Shown: piece by piece, positions 27,424 to 36,966 of the stretch
Layout of the letters: each line of letters starts with the position of its first letter
Position numbering within the stretch: the first letter of the stretch is position 1
Origin: an uncultured Faecalibacterium sp.
Lineage (GTDB): Bacteria; Bacillota; Clostridia; Oscillospirales; Ruminococcaceae
Assembly (NCBI GenBank): GCA_904394215.1
Contig: CAJFNF010000020.1
Location: 1-46,697, forward strand
DNA length: 46,697 bases
Reading direction: 5' to 3'
The notes under the pieces: generated by a model
The model's database searches: none
Told to the model about the DNA's origin: nothing
What the model saw: the letters and a program-made list of their open reading frames with translations, nothing else
Made by a program: the position numbers and the translations under genes

Positions 27424-27490
27424 CCCCCAAAGCGACAGGCTTCGGGGGATTTTGCGGCCCGGGCCGGTGGGAGGATCCCGGCCCTGTTTC
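27424..27490 (+). promoter_or_regulatory. Two hairpins in the leader of the secreted propeller protein
   Basis: CCCCCAAAGC / GCTTCGGGGG around a 5-base loop (about 27424-27449), then GGGCCGG / CCGGCCC (about 27462-27485), both between the promoter and the start at 27515. The first carries an AAAGC that superficially recalls the GEMM c-di-GMP aptamer, but the rest of that motif is absent. They could be an attenuator; the function is unknown. Confidence 0.35.
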
Positions 27491-27514
27491 GATTTGGTTG
27501 TGAGGTATGCAGCA

Positions 27515-29821
27515 ATGAATTTAAAACAATTGACCAGGCGGGGGGCAGTCCTGACCACCGCCGCCCTGCTGGCGGTCTCCACCGCCTTCAGCGTCCTGGC
27601 AGCACCCTTTGCGGCCCGCTATACGTACAGCGGCGCAGGCTATCTGTTCGAGAAGTTTTCCCACCCCGACACCGCCCTCCAGCAGCCCGACGGCCTGGTG
27701 GACTATCTGGGGGACGGCGCCGTGGCCGCCTATGACCAGGGGCAGGGCGCCCGGGGCCAGAGCTATTCCTGGGCCGCCATCGCCTATGGGGGCGCCCTCT
27801 ATGTCTCCACCAACTACGCCTCCCTGGCCCAGACCCTGAACATGATGGACACCATCCTGGGGGAGACCTTTGACAAGGACGTGATGGCCGCCGAGCTGAA
27901 AGCTTTGTACAACGGCTCCTTCTTTTACGGCGAAGAGGACGGTGCCAACACCGGCGGCGTCCTGGTGAAGTTTGACATCAACACCGGGGAGATGAAGGTG
28001 CTGATGTCCCGGGCCACCACCGGCCAGGCCTGCGCCCTGCGCAACGCCGTGGAGTACAACGGCAAGCTGTACTTCTGCGGCGCGGTGGCGGAGGGCACCC
28101 AGCTGGGCTATCCCAGCATCTGGCAGGTGGACCCCGCGACCGACGAATGCCGCCAGGTCTACACCGGCTTTGCCAGCGCCCAGGAATACTACGCCGCCTA
28201 TCAGAAGAACATCTGTGTCAGCATCCGTGGCATCACCGAGTTCAACGGCTATTTGATCATCAGCTGCGTGGGGGCCAACGGGCCCTACATCCTGGCCTCC
28301 AACCATCCCTGGGATGGCCAGGACGCCTTTGTCAAGATCGCCTCGGACGAGGAGAACGCCCCTGAAAAAGACCTGTTCGGCTACACCGCCTACCACTATT
28401 CCGACAGCATCTACGGCGGGTCCATCTGGGAGATGGTGTCCTACAACGGCAGCCTGTATGTAGCCCTGTGCACCGGCACCCCCGACAACCAGCCCGACCC
28501 CTACACCATGCAGTCCTTTGCCCTGATCCGGGGGGACTACGACCCCGCCAAAGGGGCGGTGGACAACCCTGACAGCTGGACCTGGACCCCGGTGGTGGGC
28601 GACAAGGCCGACGGCGCCAAATACACCTTTGGCATCGACCCTGAGCGCACCCGTTCGGGGGCCTGCAACCTGGTGGTCTACGACGGCTATCTCTACATCG
28701 GCGAGTACAACGACGAGGAAATCGCCCTGCAGTCCATCATCTTTGACCTGGACTTCACCTTCCTGGCCCGGAACCTGACCCAGTCGGCCAACCTGTACCG
28801 GATGGGCCCCGACGAAACCATGGAGCTGGTGGTGGGCGACCCCACCGCCATGTTCCCCGAGGGCAGCCTGTCCGGCTACGGCTCGGGCTTTGGGGACCAC
28901 GAAAACCAGTATATCTGGCAGTCCACCGTCTGGCACGACAAGCTGTACCTGGGCACCTTTGACACTTCCAGCCTGCTGGAGCCCCTGGGCCAGTTTGTGA
29001 ACGGGGACCTGCTGCGGATGAGCAAAGAGGAATGGGTCAGCCAGCTGGGCTACATCCGCACCGCCATCCAGGTGGCCACCAGCAAGCTGGCCGACCGGCT
29101 CGCCGGCACCAACGGCGCCGACCCGGCCGCCCTGCCCTCGGAGGACCAGGCCCTGGCCCTGGTCCGGCAGGCCGCAGCCGACGCCGGCCAGCGCTGGTCT
29201 GCCCAGCAGGCCGCCGCCCAGGAAAACGGCCGGGCCGCCGAAACCTGGACCATCTCCCTCACCGCGGACCAGGTGGACAGCCTGGTCCAGGCCATCACCA
29301 GCGGCCAGCTGGTGCCCGGCAGCCTCAGCGAAGCCCAGGCCGGCCAGCTGCTGGACCTCAGCCAGGAGCTGGACCAGTGCACCGCCCTCCTGGACCAGCA
29401 CGCCCCCGAGGCCCTGCTGGAACTGTACCAGGACCTGAACGACAAGGTGGAGGCCTGCAACGGCGTCCTGAAGATGGCCTATCGCAAGCTGGTAAACAAC
29501 AACCTGCTCCAGAACATCCAGTCCTACATCACCTGCGTGAAGTATTTGACCACCGCCGAGCGGGGCTTCGGCATGTACGTCAGCGATGACGGCATCCACT
29601 TTGACCAGATCACCGACAACGGCTTCGGCGACCCCTACAACCACGGCCTGCGGGTCTTTGCCACCACCGACGACTACATGTTCATCGGCACCGCCAACCC
29701 CTTTATGGGCACCCAGATCTGGCGCACCACCCAGCCCTCTGCGGCCCAGAGCGCCGGGGCTGAACCGTCCGGCCCCTCCCGCCCCATCTCTGATTTCCTG
29801 GGGAGCCTGTTCTCCCGCTGA
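27515..29821 (+). CDS. Large secreted beta-propeller-like protein
   Basis: 768 residues from the ATG at 27515 (GTGAGGT upstream), with a Sec signal peptide (about 1-29, ending SVLAAP). The mature protein shows repeated blade-like units, each with an Asn/Asp-Gly-x-Leu-Tyr-hydrophobic strand: NGKLYFCG, NGYLIISC, NGSLYVALCTG, DGYLYIGEYN, HDKLYLGTFD and DDYMFIGTANP. A helical, Gln/Ala-rich insertion (about 515-670) separates the last blade. The C-terminal NHGLRVFATTDDYMFIGTANPFMGTQIWRTT is the best-conserved-looking part. The mature N-terminus lacks a lipobox and the C-terminus lacks a sorting motif, so it is probably released or held by the wall. The function is unknown. It is divergent from a kinase/HD-GYP phosphorelay. 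Confidence 0.8.
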   Translation: MNLKQLTRRGAVLTTAALLAVSTAFSVLAAPFAARYTYSGAGYLFEKFSHPDTALQQPDGLVDYLGDGAVAAYDQGQGARGQSYSWAAIAYGGALYVSTNYASLAQTLNMMDTILGETFDKDVMAAELKALYNGSFFYGEEDGANTGGVLVKFDINTGEMKVLMSRATTGQACALRNAVEYNGKLYFCGAVAEGTQLGYPSIWQVDPATDECRQVYTGFASAQEYYAAYQKNICVSIRGITEFNGYLIISCVGANGPYILASNHPWDGQDAFVKIASDEENAPEKDLFGYTAYHYSDSIYGGSIWEMVSYNGSLYVALCTGTPDNQPDPYTMQSFALIRGDYDPAKGAVDNPDSWTWTPVVGDKADGAKYTFGIDPERTRSGACNLVVYDGYLYIGEYNDEEIALQSIIFDLDFTFLARNLTQSANLYRMGPDETMELVVGDPTAMFPEGSLSGYGSGFGDHENQYIWQSTVWHDKLYLGTFDTSSLLEPLGQFVNGDLLRMSKEEWVSQLGYIRTAIQVATSKLADRLAGTNGADPAALPSEDQALALVRQAAADAGQRWSAQQAAAQENGRAAETWTISLTADQVDSLVQAITSGQLVPGSLSEAQAGQLLDLSQELDQCTALLDQHAPEALLELYQDLNDKVEACNGVLKMAYRKLVNNNLLQNIQSYITCVKYLTTAERGFGMYVSDDGIHFDQITDNGFGDPYNHGLRVFATTDDYMFIGTANPFMGTQIWRTTQPSAAQSAGAEPSGPSRPISDFLGSLFSR

Positions 29822-31949: not shown

Positions 31950-32048
31950 ATGGTCCCCGACTGCTTGCCAAAAAACGGGAGGGTTGTGCTATCGTAAAAA
32001 ACATCCTGTTCGGGCCGCCCAGGGCAAAGACCCGAAATAAGACACAGC

Positions 32049-32090
32049 AAAAAGCCGCCCCCGCAGCCGAAACTGCAGGGGCGGCTTTTC
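32049..32090 (-). terminator. Terminator of flavin reductase gene
   Basis: A stem of about 16 bp, AAAAGCCGCCCC..CAG / CTG.AGGGGCGGCTTTT, ending in a T-run on the minus strand. Confidence 0.88.
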
Positions 32091-32116
32091 GGTTATGGTT
32101 TAAGCGCTCTCAGCCA

Positions 32117-34159
32117 TCAGACATTGTCGATGCCGGCCATCTGCTTGATGGCCTTGATGGCGAAGGTCATGGTGCGGCCGCAGGCGGTGCCGCCCATGAC
32201 GCAGGGGTAGTTGTTGGCAAAGAAGCTGCCGGACATATCACCGGTGACGTACAGGCCGGGGATGGGATCGTTGTTGTCGTCCTTGGCCTCGCAGTTGGGG
32301 GTGATGGTGATGCCCTGCATGCTGCACAGCAGGGAGGCGCCCAGCCAGCAGCCGTAGAAGGGGGCGGTCTTGATGGCGCTCAGACGGCTGGCGGGCTTGC
32401 CGAAGTCGTCGTCGTGCTGCTTGTCGTACAGCTCGTTGTAGCGCTCGACGGTGGCCAGGAAGGTCTCCTTGTCGGTGCCGGTGAAGCCCAGCTTGTCGGC
32501 CAGCTCATCGATGGTGTCGGCCTTCATGATCAGGCCTTCCTTCTCGTACTCCTCCAGCTGGCTCTCCATCATGCCGGGGAACATACGGGTCATGGCCGAG
32601 CAGCCAATGGTGTGGAACCGGTCCACGTCCTCGCGGAAGTTGGCGTCGTGGATCATGGCGTAGACGTGGCCGGGCTGCTGGAAGGAAGCGTGGGAAGCGT
32701 TGTCGTACTCCTGGCTCTCGTTCATGAACCGCTCGCCGCGGCGGTTAACCTTCAGGAAGGGCTGGCTGCCGGGGTTGTACTGGCCCACGGTGCCGGGGAA
32801 GGCCTTGCCGCCGAAGGAGGAGGCAGACTCCACATAGCCGGAGTCCACGCCGGGAGCCACCAGGCCGCGGTCAAACAGGACCGGGGCGGGTTCTGCATCC
32901 AGGTGTGCGCCGGCCCAGATGGCGGCGCGGATACCGTAGCCCTTGTCGGCGGGGGCATAGGAGCAGGCGGTGGTGACGCTGGTGCCCAGGGGATCCAGCT
33001 GCTCCATCATGTAGGGGTTGCCGGCGTAGCCGCCGCAGGCCAGCAGGACGCCCTTGGAGGCGTTGATCCGGATGAAGTGGCCGTCGTCATTGCTCTGGGC
33101 GATGGCGCCGGTGATGCGGCCGGTGTCATCCTTTTCCAGCTTGGCCAGGGCGGTGTTGAAGTCGATGGAGTAGCCCAGGCCCTCGATGTACTCCTGGAAC
33201 ACCTCATTGCGGGGCTTCTCGGCGGTGCTGTAGTCGATCTGCTGGACCGGGAACATCAGCTTGGTCTGGCTGACCTGGGTGTCATCGGGCCACTTGGCCT
33301 CGTCGCCACTCGTCAGGTTGCAGGTGTAGTTGTAGGGGTCGCTCTCCATGATGCTGGCCACGAAGTCGTGCATGGCAGCAGACTCGTCGATCCAGGTCTT
33401 GACCACCCGCTGGTCGCAGCGGCCGCCCATGGTGCGGGAAATCTCGCTCAGCAGTTCCGCGCGGTCCACCGGGGCCACGCCCTGCTTCTGGGCCTCGCTG
33501 CTGTCGATGGCGCCGTACCAGCCGCGGGTCTCCATGACAGCGCCGTTCTGCTCGATGATCCGGAAGTTCAGGCCGTTCTTGGCTGCGTAGGCAGCAGCGC
33601 ACATACCGCCGTTGCCGGCGCCCACGATCAGGATGTCGGTGTCCCAGGTGTCGGTGATAGCGGCCTCGTCGATGTCGGGCTCGGTGCCCAGCCAGTCGTT
33701 CTCGTCGCCGGTGGGCAGCTGGACGGCGGTGACCACCGTCTCACCCATGGCCTGGGAGATGCAGCTCTTGGCGGCCTTCATGACGGCCTGGGAGGTAATG
33801 GTGGAGCCAGACACGCCGTCGATGTCGGCCGAGCCGGCAGCCAGCAGCTGCTTCTGCAGCTCCTCGGCAGCGGCTGCGCCGTAGGAAGCAGTCTCGCCCG
33901 AGGTGTCCACCACAACGTCGGTGACAGCGCTGTCGCTGAAGGTCATGGTGACCTTGACGGTGGAGGAAATGCCCTCTGCGGTGCCCTCATAGGTGCCGGG
34001 GATGTAGGTAGCCCCTGCTGCCACCGAGCCAGCGCCCGAAGCTGCGCTGGATGCGCCGGTGCTGGCAGCCTGGCAGGCAGCCAGGGCGCCGGCGGTCACG
34101 CCGCCCATGGCGGCAGCCGCAGCGATCTTCAGAAAACCTTTACGGGAAATCTTTTCCAT
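32117..34159 (-). CDS. Exported FMN/FAD-dependent reductase (flavocytochrome c / fumarate-reductase-like)
   Basis: A 680-residue flavoprotein anchored outside the cell. The N-terminus has a Tat-like start (SRKGFLK, second Arg replaced by Lys), a hydrophobic stretch and a lipobox LAAC (Cys29). An FMN-binding domain (about 52-140) carries DGVSGST (114-120), matching the ApbE covalent-flavinylation motif with Thr120 as attachment. The FAD domain starts at ILIVGAGNGG (GxGxxG at 180-185). Such proteins take electrons from the membrane and reduce an external acceptor. The C-terminal segment reads FFANNYPCVMGGTACGR; the catalytic Arg that fumarate reductases have in the matching GANRLGGN loop is not seen, so the substrate is probably not fumarate. 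Codon use is enolase-like (CGT, GCT, GGT), suggesting high expression. It is divergent from a LysR gene. Confidence 0.92.
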   Translation of the reverse strand: MEKISRKGFLKIAAAAAMGGVTAGALAACQAASTGASSAASGAGSVAAGATYIPGTYEGTAEGISSTVKVTMTFSDSAVTDVVVDTSGETASYGAAAAEELQKQLLAAGSADIDGVSGSTITSQAVMKAAKSCISQAMGETVVTAVQLPTGDENDWLGTEPDIDEAAITDTWDTDILIVGAGNGGMCAAAYAAKNGLNFRIIEQNGAVMETRGWYGAIDSSEAQKQGVAPVDRAELLSEISRTMGGRCDQRVVKTWIDESAAMHDFVASIMESDPYNYTCNLTSGDEAKWPDDTQVSQTKLMFPVQQIDYSTAEKPRNEVFQEYIEGLGYSIDFNTALAKLEKDDTGRITGAIAQSNDDGHFIRINASKGVLLACGGYAGNPYMMEQLDPLGTSVTTACSYAPADKGYGIRAAIWAGAHLDAEPAPVLFDRGLVAPGVDSGYVESASSFGGKAFPGTVGQYNPGSQPFLKVNRRGERFMNESQEYDNASHASFQQPGHVYAMIHDANFREDVDRFHTIGCSAMTRMFPGMMESQLEEYEKEGLIMKADTIDELADKLGFTGTDKETFLATVERYNELYDKQHDDDFGKPASRLSAIKTAPFYGCWLGASLLCSMQGITITPNCEAKDDNNDPIPGLYVTGDMSGSFFANNYPCVMGGTACGRTMTFAIKAIKQMAGIDNV

Positions 34160-34234: not shown

Positions 34235-34263
34235 ATTCTAACCAATCCCCTGCCAATTTACAA
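34235..34263 (-). promoter_or_regulatory. Promoter of flavin reductase gene
   Basis: On the minus strand, TTGTAA (34258-34263), 17 bases, TAGAAT (34235-34240). Its -35 box overlaps the -35 box of the divergent lysR promoter. Confidence 0.7.
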
Positions 34264-34285
34264 ATCATAGTTTTTATGCTACATT
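34257..34285 (+). promoter_or_regulatory. lysR promoter with LysR-type dyad
   Basis: TTTACA (34257-34262), 17 bases, TACATT (34280-34285). Between the boxes lies CATA, 5 bases, TATG (34266-34278), a T-rich LysR-style dyad. Protein bound there would repress lysR and sit directly upstream of the reductase -35, as in classical auto-regulated LysR pairs. Confidence 0.6.
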
Positions 34286-34319
34286 TTAGGAAAACCTTAT
34301 AAAAAAGGAGGTCTCCCCC

Positions 34320-35225
34320 GTGACCGAACGTTCCCTCACCGGCTTTGTGAAGGTGGTGGAGCTGGGCAGCTTCACCGCCGCCGCAGACGCGTTGTTCATC
34401 TCCCAATCGGCTCTGTCACAGCAGATCCGCACCCTGGAAAGCCACCTCCACTTCGCCCTGTTCCAGCACGGCGCCCGCCAGGTCACCCTGACCCCCGCCG
34501 GCCAGGCCTTTTACCCCAAGGCCAAGCAAATCCTAACCCTGTACCAGTCCGCCGTCAAGGAGGGCATGGCCATCCAGCAGAACTCCCACCCGCCCCAGCG
34601 GCACCTGTTCCTGGCCTGCCAGGACACCGCCCTCATCACCTTTTGCTATGACCTGCTGGGCCTGACCCCCGATTTGTGCCTGGAGTTTGCTCCCCTGGTC
34701 CAGTATTGCGGCAACCGTTCCGAGGTGTGGCGGGCCCTGGACAACGGGGACGCCGACCTGTCCTTCCAGATGGAGACGGCGGAAATCGCGGCCCGGGGCC
34801 TTCGCTTCACCCCCATCCTGAACCTGCCCGAGCTGTGTGTCCCCTTCAATGTGCCCGACACCCTGCCCCCGCAGGTCCTCACCCTGGAGGAGGCCCTCAC
34901 CTGCCGGTGGCTCTTTGCCTTTCCCTTTTCCGAAACCATCTACGAGACCGAGCTGGCCTCCCAGGCCCTGAAACAGGGCGGGGACGTGATCTCCCCCGCC
35001 AATGTGCGCAGCGCCGCCTACGGCCTGCCCACCCTGATGATGTTCCCCTGCATCTACCACCGGCGCCCCTCCTTCGAGACGGTGCGGGTCCTCCGCTGGG
35101 GCACCGGGGGGCGCTTCGGCATAGTCACCACCGCCAACCCCGACGAGGCCGTCTGCCGTTACATGGAGGCCATCCGCCGGGTGATCCTGCTCAAGCAGCA
35201 CCAGCTGTTCGGCCTGCTGGCCTGA
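34320..35225 (+). CDS. LysR family transcriptional regulator
   Basis: 301 residues. The N-terminal winged helix-turn-helix (about 1-62) contains FVKVVELGSFTAAADALFISQSALSQQIRTLE. The rest is a periplasmic-binding-like effector domain, whose ligand cannot be read. The start is GTG at 34320, eight bases after AAGGAGG. It is divergent from the exported reductase with overlapping promoters, so it most likely induces that enzyme when the electron-acceptor substrate, or a related compound, is present. Confidence 0.94.
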   Translation: MTERSLTGFVKVVELGSFTAAADALFISQSALSQQIRTLESHLHFALFQHGARQVTLTPAGQAFYPKAKQILTLYQSAVKEGMAIQQNSHPPQRHLFLACQDTALITFCYDLLGLTPDLCLEFAPLVQYCGNRSEVWRALDNGDADLSFQMETAEIAARGLRFTPILNLPELCVPFNVPDTLPPQVLTLEEALTCRWLFAFPFSETIYETELASQALKQGGDVISPANVRSAAYGLPTLMMFPCIYHRRPSFETVRVLRWGTGGRFGIVTTANPDEAVCRYMEAIRRVILLKQHQLFGLLA

Positions 35226-35396: not shown

Positions 35397-35843
35397 ATGA
35401 AGCTCACCATCCACGAGGACCCGTCGGCCGGCGAGACCGAGATCACCATCCGCTGTCCCTTCCTGGACAGCCGGCTCAAGCGGCTGGTGCATCAGATCCG
35501 ACCGTACGATTCCTGTCTCACCGGCTACCAGGACAGCCGGCAGTTCCAGCTGCCCCTGGAGAGCATCTACTATCTGGAGTCCACCGACGGCACCACCTTT
35601 CTCTATCAGGAGAAGGAGGTCTACGCCTGCCGTGAGACCCTGGCCGCCCTGGAGCCCCAGCTTGCCCGCAGCGGCTTTGCCCGGATCAGCAAGAGCTGCA
35701 TCCTGAACATCTCCTTTCTGGAATATGTGGAACCCCTCTTCAACCACCGGATGAAAGCCACCCTGAAAAATGGCGAAGCCCTCATCATCAGCCGCAGCTA
35801 CATTGCCCCCCTGCGGGAGCTGCTGAAAGGAGATTCGGTATGA
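35397..35843 (+). CDS. LytTR DNA-binding regulator (stand-alone)
   Basis: A 148-residue protein with a short N-terminal part and a LytTR domain (about 48-145). The domain has LPLESIYYLESTDGTTFLY, LARSGFARISKSCILNISFLEYVEPL and LKNGEALIISRSYIAPLRELL. There is no receiver domain, so it is not a classical response regulator. The next gene encodes a DUF3021 membrane protein and overlaps by 4 bases (ATGA). This pairing is the LytTR regulatory system known from streptococci (HdrRM, BrsRM), where the membrane partner holds back the regulator. Confidence 0.93.
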   Translation: MKLTIHEDPSAGETEITIRCPFLDSRLKRLVHQIRPYDSCLTGYQDSRQFQLPLESIYYLESTDGTTFLYQEKEVYACRETLAALEPQLARSGFARISKSCILNISFLEYVEPLFNHRMKATLKNGEALIISRSYIAPLRELLKGDSV

Positions 35844-36277
35844 AAAAGCAGATCTTGACCCGCCTGCCCGCAGCCTGCATGATGTTCACCGCCCTTCTGC
35901 TGGTCTCGGCGGTTCAAAATATCCTGAACGGCTATGCCGAATCCGGGTGGAGCGTGATCCTTGTCTTTCTCTGGATGGTGTTCTTTCAGGCGGTGGACTA
36001 CCTGCTGTCCCTGATCCCCTTCCGCACCTGCCGGCAGTACCGCCTGTGCTACACGGCAGTGGACTACCTGCTGGTGATGGCCTTCTGGTTCTGGCTCCGG
36101 GGGGACTGGACCCGTCCGACCTTCTGGAGCATTGTGACCGCCACCATCTATTATTTGATTGCTGCCCGGATCGTCCTGCGGGTTGTCCAGGCCTGGCGCC
36201 GGGCCACAGCCGACGAAATCAACCGGGAGCTGGCCCGCCGGCGGGCGGCAGAGCAGCAGGATCCCCCCGACCCATAA
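35840..36277 (+). CDS. DUF3021 membrane protein, likely inhibitor of the LytTR regulator
   Basis: 145 residues with four hydrophobic segments (about 10-28, 36-58, 70-88 and 96-118) and a charged C-terminal tail rich in Arg, the layout of DUF3021 proteins. It is translationally coupled to the LytTR gene. In streptococcal pairs of this type the membrane protein antagonises the regulator; the same role is inferred here. The signal it senses is unknown. Confidence 0.88.
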   Translation: MKKQILTRLPAACMMFTALLLVSAVQNILNGYAESGWSVILVFLWMVFFQAVDYLLSLIPFRTCRQYRLCYTAVDYLLVMAFWFWLRGDWTRPTFWSIVTATIYYLIAARIVLRVVQAWRRATADEINRELARRRAAEQQDPPDP

Positions 36278-36333: not shown

Positions 36334-36966
36334 TTACTGATAGGCCATCTGCAGGTCGTCGGGTCCGCAGGCCTGCCCAAACTTCACCGTGAAGGTGTGG
36401 GTGGAGTCGTGGACGCCGGCGTTGGGCCCCGGCTGTTCCGGCGGGGTAAAGTTGAGGGTCAGGGTGCCTGCCCCGCTGCTGATGGTGCCGGTGGCGCCCA
36501 CGTCAATGGTCTGCCCCGGGTTCACCCCGTAAAAGACGTACTGGCCGTCGCCGTCGGCGGCAGCCTGGGTGGTCTGGGCCATCTTCTCGCTGCGGGTAAT
36601 CTGGGCCTGGAAGGCCTGGCCCTCAAAGGACCCGCCGATGGTCTGGGAGCCGTCCTCATACTGGCCGAAGGCGTTGCTGTGGACATGGTAGATCCACACC
36701 GGCTCCCCGGTGAGGTTGGTGACGGTAAATCCCAGCAGCACCAGACAGGCGGGTTCCTTGTCCCGGTAGACCGAGCGGGACACCGTGTTCAGGGTCACCC
36801 GAAGGTATCCGTCCTCGGCGGTGGACTGAAGTATTTCCACCCCGCCCTGTCCGCCGTTTTCCTGGTCGGCAGTCTCGGCCCGGGCGGCCAGGGGGAACGC
36901 CAGGTTCAGGGCGGCAGCCCCCGCCGCGGCGCTGTATTTCAAAAAAGATCTGCGGGAAATCATCAT
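36334..36966 (-). CDS. Tat-signal secreted protein of unknown function
   Basis: 210 residues. The N-terminus is a clear twin-arginine signal (MISRRSFLKYSAAAGAAAL) with an Ala-x-Ala cleavage site (AARAE, about residue 30). The mature domain of about 175 residues is strand-rich: LVLLGFTVTNLTGEPVWIYHVHSNAFGQYEDGSQ, later YVFYGVNPGQTIDVGATGTI and GTLTLNFTPPEQPG. This outline (N-rich Ig-like domain handling folded cargo) resembles DUF4352/DUF5067-type domains, but no confident family assignment is possible. GAGGAG precedes the first ATG by 9 bases. Export through Tat would imply folding or cofactor loading in the cytoplasm. Confidence 0.75.
   Translation of the reverse strand: MMISRRSFLKYSAAAGAAALNLAFPLAARAETADQENGGQGGVEILQSTAEDGYLRVTLNTVSRSVYRDKEPACLVLLGFTVTNLTGEPVWIYHVHSNAFGQYEDGSQTIGGSFEGQAFQAQITRSEKMAQTTQAAADGDGQYVFYGVNPGQTIDVGATGTISSGAGTLTLNFTPPEQPGPNAGVHDSTHTFTVKFGQACGPDDLQMAYQ

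Follow-up and report, generated by a model that had tools for sequence, protein, structure and literature searches.

A predicted exported flavin reductase of Faecalibacterium with a tyrosine pair in place of canonical fumarate-reductase residues, and the divergent LysR-type regulator beside it

The reductase gene, its signal and its surroundings

The window analysed here (the whole stretch of 46,697 nucleotides) is contig C20 of a Faecalibacterium genome of 2.42 Mb in 88 contigs (~93% complete). On its reverse strand, positions 32117–34159 hold an open reading frame with an ATG start that encodes a 680-residue reductase with two flavin domains, FMN_bind at residues 63–134 (33758–33973, reverse strand; Pfam, E 7.8e-12) and FAD_binding_2 at residues 175–648 (Pfam, E 8.5e-37). 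The N-terminal signal region (residues 1–29; 34073–34159, reverse strand) comprises SRKGFLK, a Tat-like motif in an RK variant, and a LAAC lipobox ending in Cys29. The Pfam Tat-signal model reported no match for the reductase; relatives of the Lachnospiraceae type have RR at the position of the RK. Within the FMN_bind domain, the motif DGVSGSTITS contains Thr120 (33800–33802, reverse strand), the predicted FMN attachment residue of an ApbE-type site, and the corresponding column holds Thr in 28/28 aligned rows. Both flavin domains thus reside in one protein with a predicted export signal, and the reductase is probably exported and lipid-anchored, and would be of the flavinylated type, with covalent FMN predicted from the Thr motif. 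An exported flavin reductase had been proposed from the sequence alone, and the lipobox cysteine, the FMN_bind domain with Thr120 and the FAD_binding_2 domain are indeed all present. Among the Lachnospiraceae-type relatives, L026, L028, L030 and L033 carry a twin-Arg RR signal within the first 40 residues; the lipobox Cys is present in L033 and absent in the other three, and the C-terminus of L030 is a Glu-rich tail of ~25 residues that is absent from other relatives.

Divergently oriented to the reductase is lysR (34320–35225, forward strand), encoding a LysR-type regulator of 301 residues in which Pfam recognised only HTH_1 (residues 5–62). The intergenic region contains two opposed and overlapping promoter-like sites, TTGTAA-17-TAGAAT for the reductase (34235–34263, reverse strand) and TTTACA-17-TACATT for lysR (34257–34285, forward strand), and the region as a whole holds three such sites compared to 0.5 ± 0.6 in shuffled sequences. 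The string TTGTAAA is kept in 13/13 intergenic regions of lysR-linked loci. A simple scan of these regions found no shared LysR T-N11-A box, and a better candidate for the LysR site may be the dyad TTAGG-AAAA-CCTTA at 34286–34299 (no strand assigned), which has one mismatch here and, judged by eye over the 13 lysR-linked loci, is perfect in six and carries one mismatch in five and two mismatches in two. Behind the reductase stop lies a terminator-like hairpin of 20 pairs, 12 of them G-C (32048–32091, reverse strand), one of eight terminator-like sites in the region (2.9 ± 1.4 in shuffles). We rejected an operon partner for the reductase in view of this hairpin and of the divergent lysR, and the reductase appears to be a unit of one gene next to a divergent regulator. 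No RNA element reached the gathering score between 29000 and 37500.

Further out, the forward strand holds a 789-residue ORF at 27452–29821 in which Pfam matched nothing at E 0.001 and, at 35397–36277, a LytTR-type regulator; the sole match of the ORF after it, to DUF7937, is below threshold. The reverse-strand ORF at 36334–36966 encodes 210 residues in which the Tat signal is the only Pfam match, and relatives of this protein lie near two loci (L011, L027) of the reductase type called A below.

Relatives, paralogs and joint change with the regulator

Close relatives of the reductase were found only in Faecalibacterium and in some Lachnospiraceae-type genomes. At E <= 1e-60 a match was present in 27 of the 61 genomes near the window, all within the genus (27/31 inside, the window's own included; 0/30 outside), and at E <= 1e-50 the window's own genome was the only one of 291 in the class to match. 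A scan of named genomes yielded 31 loci, of which eight carry the label Lachnospiraceae, Oribacterium or Clostridiales. The Faecalibacterium sequences fall into type A, which includes the window's copy and carries VMGGTACGR (82–92% identity to the window), and type B (68–75% identity to the window). An A- or B-type match, in some cases a fragment, occurs in 26 of the 27 matching genomes, the other (G028) having only paralogs of ~45% identity, and a B-type match is also found in 6/10 A genomes, that of G010 only in pieces. One in-frame TAA is marked in each of the B-type copies of G004 and G011; in L035, the G004 counterpart, the frame ends three bases before the match end, so that the G004 copy is probably unbroken. 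On contig C12 of G023 (L017/L085), an A-type and a B-type reductase flank an OmpR-type response regulator.

The window's genome encodes at least 10 intact ORFs with FMN_bind that also match the FAD part of the reductase (the window's included); their active-site loops differ, and two are canonical. It also encodes one ApbE, one TatC, and RnfC with a run of rnfD/G/E/A/B-like genes, as well as an FMN_bind protein of 133 residues (L070:4330–4731), which begins with a hydrophobic stretch and could act as a membrane shuttle. A weak RnfC-type site on contig C13 was discarded as a dedicated donor, as it belongs to an aldo/keto-reductase-like ORF with ferredoxin-type cysteines (by eye). The single ApbE of this genome (G000) compares with 17 FMN_bind stretches, and on its contig C8 a further FMN_bind relative (L064:4381–6654) consists of two ORFs that an in-frame TAG keeps apart.

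A divergent LysR of this kind accompanies the reductase at 9 of the 10 distinct full-length A loci (the window and nine others, with a duplicate contig counted once and L041, a fragment of 274 N-terminal residues, excluded); at the A locus L013 there was no such LysR at E 1e-15. Regulators counted in the sequence stretches around 18 distinct full-length B loci of Faecalibacterium, a set that excludes the B copy of the window's genome, were a LysR at four and an OmpR-type response regulator at eight. Neither kind was found at the eight Lachnospiraceae-type loci, two of which have little or no upstream sequence.

One locus, consisting of lysR, reductase, an AAA_5 gene and a 584-residue ORF, is common to seven genomes and carries the A type in three (L015, L016, L077) and the B type in four (L019, L024, L079, L080). 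Between A and B, the DNA-binding part of LysR (residues 1–62) is 89–92% identical, as opposed to 50–52% for the sensor part (residue 91 to the end), which is conserved within each type (98% within A, 84–93% within B). The N-terminal part of the reductase with the FMN domain is likewise 92–97% identical between A and B, compared to 61–79% for the catalytic segments (93–100% within type). In 7/7 genomes the sensor and catalytic tracts, on either side of a conserved core, are of the same type, and this joint change speaks for a match between sensor and acceptor. The flanks of L024 (a B locus) are closer to those of the A strains (94–96% upstream, 94% downstream) than to those of the other B strains (89–91% and 83%), a grouping that needs just one switch, so that the joint change was possibly a single event. 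Outside the shared locus the sensor type does not track the reductase type: identities of the window's LysR sensor are 43% (L015) and 42% (L016) with A strains, and 45% (L019) and 47% (L024) with B strains. The suggestion in the sequence-only reading that the LysR may sense the acceptor is thus supported indirectly by the linkage at nine of ten A loci and by the joint change at one locus, and weakened by the lack of tracking elsewhere.

The two domains of the reductase also conflict in their trees, which were built from 28 rows. The FMN part rejects the 13 B rows as one group (AU p 6.4e-6), and the catalytic part rejects a group that joins A to the eight B rows whose FMN part is A-like (p 9.2e-5); both p values are indicative, since the groups were named after identities had been inspected. 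Electron-input and catalytic domains appear to have been exchanged between copies.

Active-site residues and candidate acceptors

We compared the active site with that of Fcc3 by profile alignment to 1qjd, counting residues from printed numbers. Tyr485 (32705–32707) takes the place of the general acid R402, Leu611 (32327–32329) and Cys612 (32324–32326) take those of H504 and H505, and Tyr651 (32207–32209), in a YPCVMGG loop, takes that of R544, all on the reverse strand; Fcc3 H365 falls near Phe429, where a nearby gap makes the placement unreliable. The loop FFANNYPCVMGGTACGR is present in the reductase, and the earlier statement that it lacks the Arg of the fumarate-reductase loop is correct for the R544 column. 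The string quoted there closes with an Arg (R662), which sits in a different alignment column, in which the two canonical paralogs have Asp. The loss is in fact wider than had been claimed, as R402 and H504 are also replaced.

Two paralogs from the same genome, L068 (contig C15) and L069 (contig C9), provide an internal control, since they keep the canonical residues (TRD, HHTMGG and NR) and pass the cut-off of the flavocytochrome c model TIGR01813 (495.1 and 445.9 bits; cut-off 285.45). The reductase shares fold and domains with fumarate reductases, but with 121.2 bits in this model and with R402, H504 and R544 all replaced, unlike in L068 and L069, a fumarate reductase is highly improbable. 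The acceptor is very likely something other than fumarate, and the non-fumarate acceptor originally proposed from the loop alone is now supported by more residues.

The two tyrosines differ in how widely they are shared. The Tyr651 column holds Tyr in 26/28 rows and Arg in the two canonical rows, whereas the Tyr485 column holds Tyr in 23/28, namely the 20 A/B rows, the paralogs C2 and C8a, and L063:7927–9993, where the Tyr adjoins an insertion. The remaining five have Arg (the canonical two) or G, D and G (three paralogs); as three of the four other non-canonical paralogs are without Tyr at 485, the Tyr pair is not general. Both residues align with catalytic tyrosines of the ketosteroid dehydrogenase AcmB (7p18; Tyr363 and Tyr536, counted from printed numbers), and the C-terminal 81 residues match 7p18 with E 0.00045 compared to 0.023 for the best fumarate reductase, both values being weak. 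Gly657, compared with KstD1 Gly491, is present in 28/28 rows, though loop length differs. In AcmB, protonated Y363 is described as donating a proton in 1,2-hydrogenation of the C=C bond, and Tyr536 is among the tyrosines that stabilise the carbanion (PMC9736390); in KstD1 the keto group is reported to be handled by Tyr487 and Gly491, and C2 by Tyr318 and Tyr119 (PMC5348764). By its entry title, PDB 1jrz is a crystallised R402Y mutant of Fcc3.

An AlphaFold2 model built from 28 sequences (mean pLDDT 81.0, pTM 0.77) had as its top Foldseek match in the PDB the urocanate reductase UrdA (6t86; TM 0.89 by target, 0.61 by query), followed by Shewanella fumarate reductases, ketosteroid dehydrogenases (4c3x, 7p18) and a cyclohexanone dehydrogenase. 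Loop residues 648–650 have pLDDT <50, and the active-site reading rests for this reason on the sequence alignment.

On the best reading, to which we give about an even chance, the protein is an ene-reductase, exported and flavinylated, that acts on a neutral enone-like acceptor. The membrane, possibly through Rnf or another FMN protein, would supply electrons to the FMN on Thr120, and from there they would move on to FAD. The acceptor would be a neutral alpha,beta-unsaturated compound: FADH- would transfer a hydride to its beta carbon, the proton for its alpha carbon would come from Tyr485, and its carbonyl oxygen would be held by Tyr651 and the glycine loop. The chemistry would be that of an AcmB-type ketosteroid dehydrogenase run towards hydrogenation, on a urocanate-reductase-like chassis, and the divergent LysR would sense the acceptor or a relative of it and control the single-gene reductase unit. 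Counting against these roles of the tyrosines is Cgr2, in which the Tyr shared with ketosteroid dehydrogenases was reported to be dispensable and only the Gly mattered (PMC5953540).

The tyrosine pair would also suit the reverse direction, an exported dehydrogenase that desaturates a ketone substrate and sends electrons via FMN to the membrane or an outside acceptor. The habitat of Faecalibacterium is anoxic, which argues against such an enzyme. Dehydrogenation by AcmB is described as much faster than hydrogenation (PMC9736390), but the enzymes of FMN+FAD layout described in PMC8238504 are reductases, and we consider this direction improbable.

Enoates, among the candidates suggested by the sequence-only reading, are a poorer fit than neutral enones, since the residues that usually anchor a carboxylate are gone: neither the acid nor either of the two carboxylate-binding residues of Fcc3 and UrdA is kept, and in UrdA the substitution R411A was reported to abolish the reaction and R560A and H520A to slow it (PMC10882135). 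They are kept in play chiefly by Arg212 (33524–33526) and Arg431 (32867–32869, both reverse strand), candidate alternative acid-binding residues that are conserved together with the Tyr pair in the same 22 rows (all 20 A/B rows and the paralogs C2 and C8a) and absent from both canonical paralogs. An enoate reductase for a cinnamate-like or other aryl-acrylate substrate, in which Arg212 or Arg431 would bind the carboxylate, would also be in keeping with the urocanate and fumarate reductases among the characterised FMN+FAD relatives (PMC8238504); we regard it as rather unlikely.

Curated models point to one further candidate, a vinyl phenol reductase like VprA, which is the top NCBIfam model by score and whose likeness extends to the Tyr at the 651 place in the VprA-like L075 and L076. 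Its score of 166.7 bits lies, however, far under the 600-bit cut-off, and L075 and L076 are without the NESxxY acid motif and are themselves under that cut-off (507.3 and 479.3 bits), so that this assignment appears slightly less probable still than the dehydrogenase. The labels fumarate reductase, UrdA, KSTD and VprA were all dropped in view of residues or curated scores. The gut steroid 5beta-reductases were set aside as a guide, as those described in PMC12238238 are Old Yellow Enzymes, a different family. In the open-licence literature we found no published Faecalibacterium acceptor for such a reductase.

Faecalibacterium is an abundant human gut genus. Ketosteroid-dehydrogenase-type tyrosines combined with an electron-carrying FMN domain would point to neutral gut compounds such as steroids, plant enones and drugs as possible respiratory acceptors. 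More broadly, and as a tentative proposal that we hold less firmly than the neutral-enone reading of this enzyme, Faecalibacterium might carry out extracytosolic respiration of neutral enones (of steroid, plant or lactone type) by means of a Tyr/Tyr site on a flavinylated chassis, with strains swapping sensor and catalytic pairs; the LysR sensor and the catalytic domain would then be replaced jointly around a fixed promoter and FMN electron-input core. Such joint change would offer a route to the acceptor, leading from the inducer of each LysR type to the matching reductase. The FMN+FAD chassis itself is already known (PMC8238504, PMC10979944), and PMC10979944 refers to Little et al. 2023 on a large family whose members differ in acceptor. 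We did not meet the Tyr/Tyr site on this chassis, or the matched sensor and catalytic change, in the open-licence passages, and subscription papers may describe such sites.

Comparison with known systems

Cgr2, the digoxin reductase of Eggerthella lenta, compared here by description only, is also a Tat-type exported PF00890 gut reductase; it too is without the fumarate residues, has a Tyr and a Gly in common with ketosteroid dehydrogenases and is reported to require [4Fe-4S] clusters (PMC5953540). The reductase described here has 13 Cys, six of them invariant among the 20 A/B rows, and might hide an Fe-S cluster like those of Cgr2. The VprA-like L075 and L076 differ from it in being without Tyr at the 485 place in the alignment used. 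Fcc3 is alike in the fold of the FAD domain, but carries heme in place of the FMN domain (PMC8238504), where the reductase has FMN_bind.

The likeness to the ketosteroid dehydrogenases AcmB (7p18) and KstD1 (4c3x) lies in the YP...G loop and in two tyrosines (Tyr363/Tyr536 in AcmB, Tyr318/Tyr487 in KstD1), which correspond to Tyr485 and Tyr651 by the AcmB alignment; the third (Tyr118/119) is outside the reliable alignment. Unlike these enzymes, the reductase carries an FMN domain and is probably exported, and its scores in the curated KSTD models (126.6 and 106.7 bits) are far under the cut-offs of 789 and 788. The best structural match, UrdA (PDB 6t85–6t88), shares with it the FMN domain and the FAD and clamp domains, but keeps R411, H520 and R560 (PMC7921117), the carboxylate residues at whose matching Fcc3 places the reductase has Tyr485, Leu611 and Tyr651.
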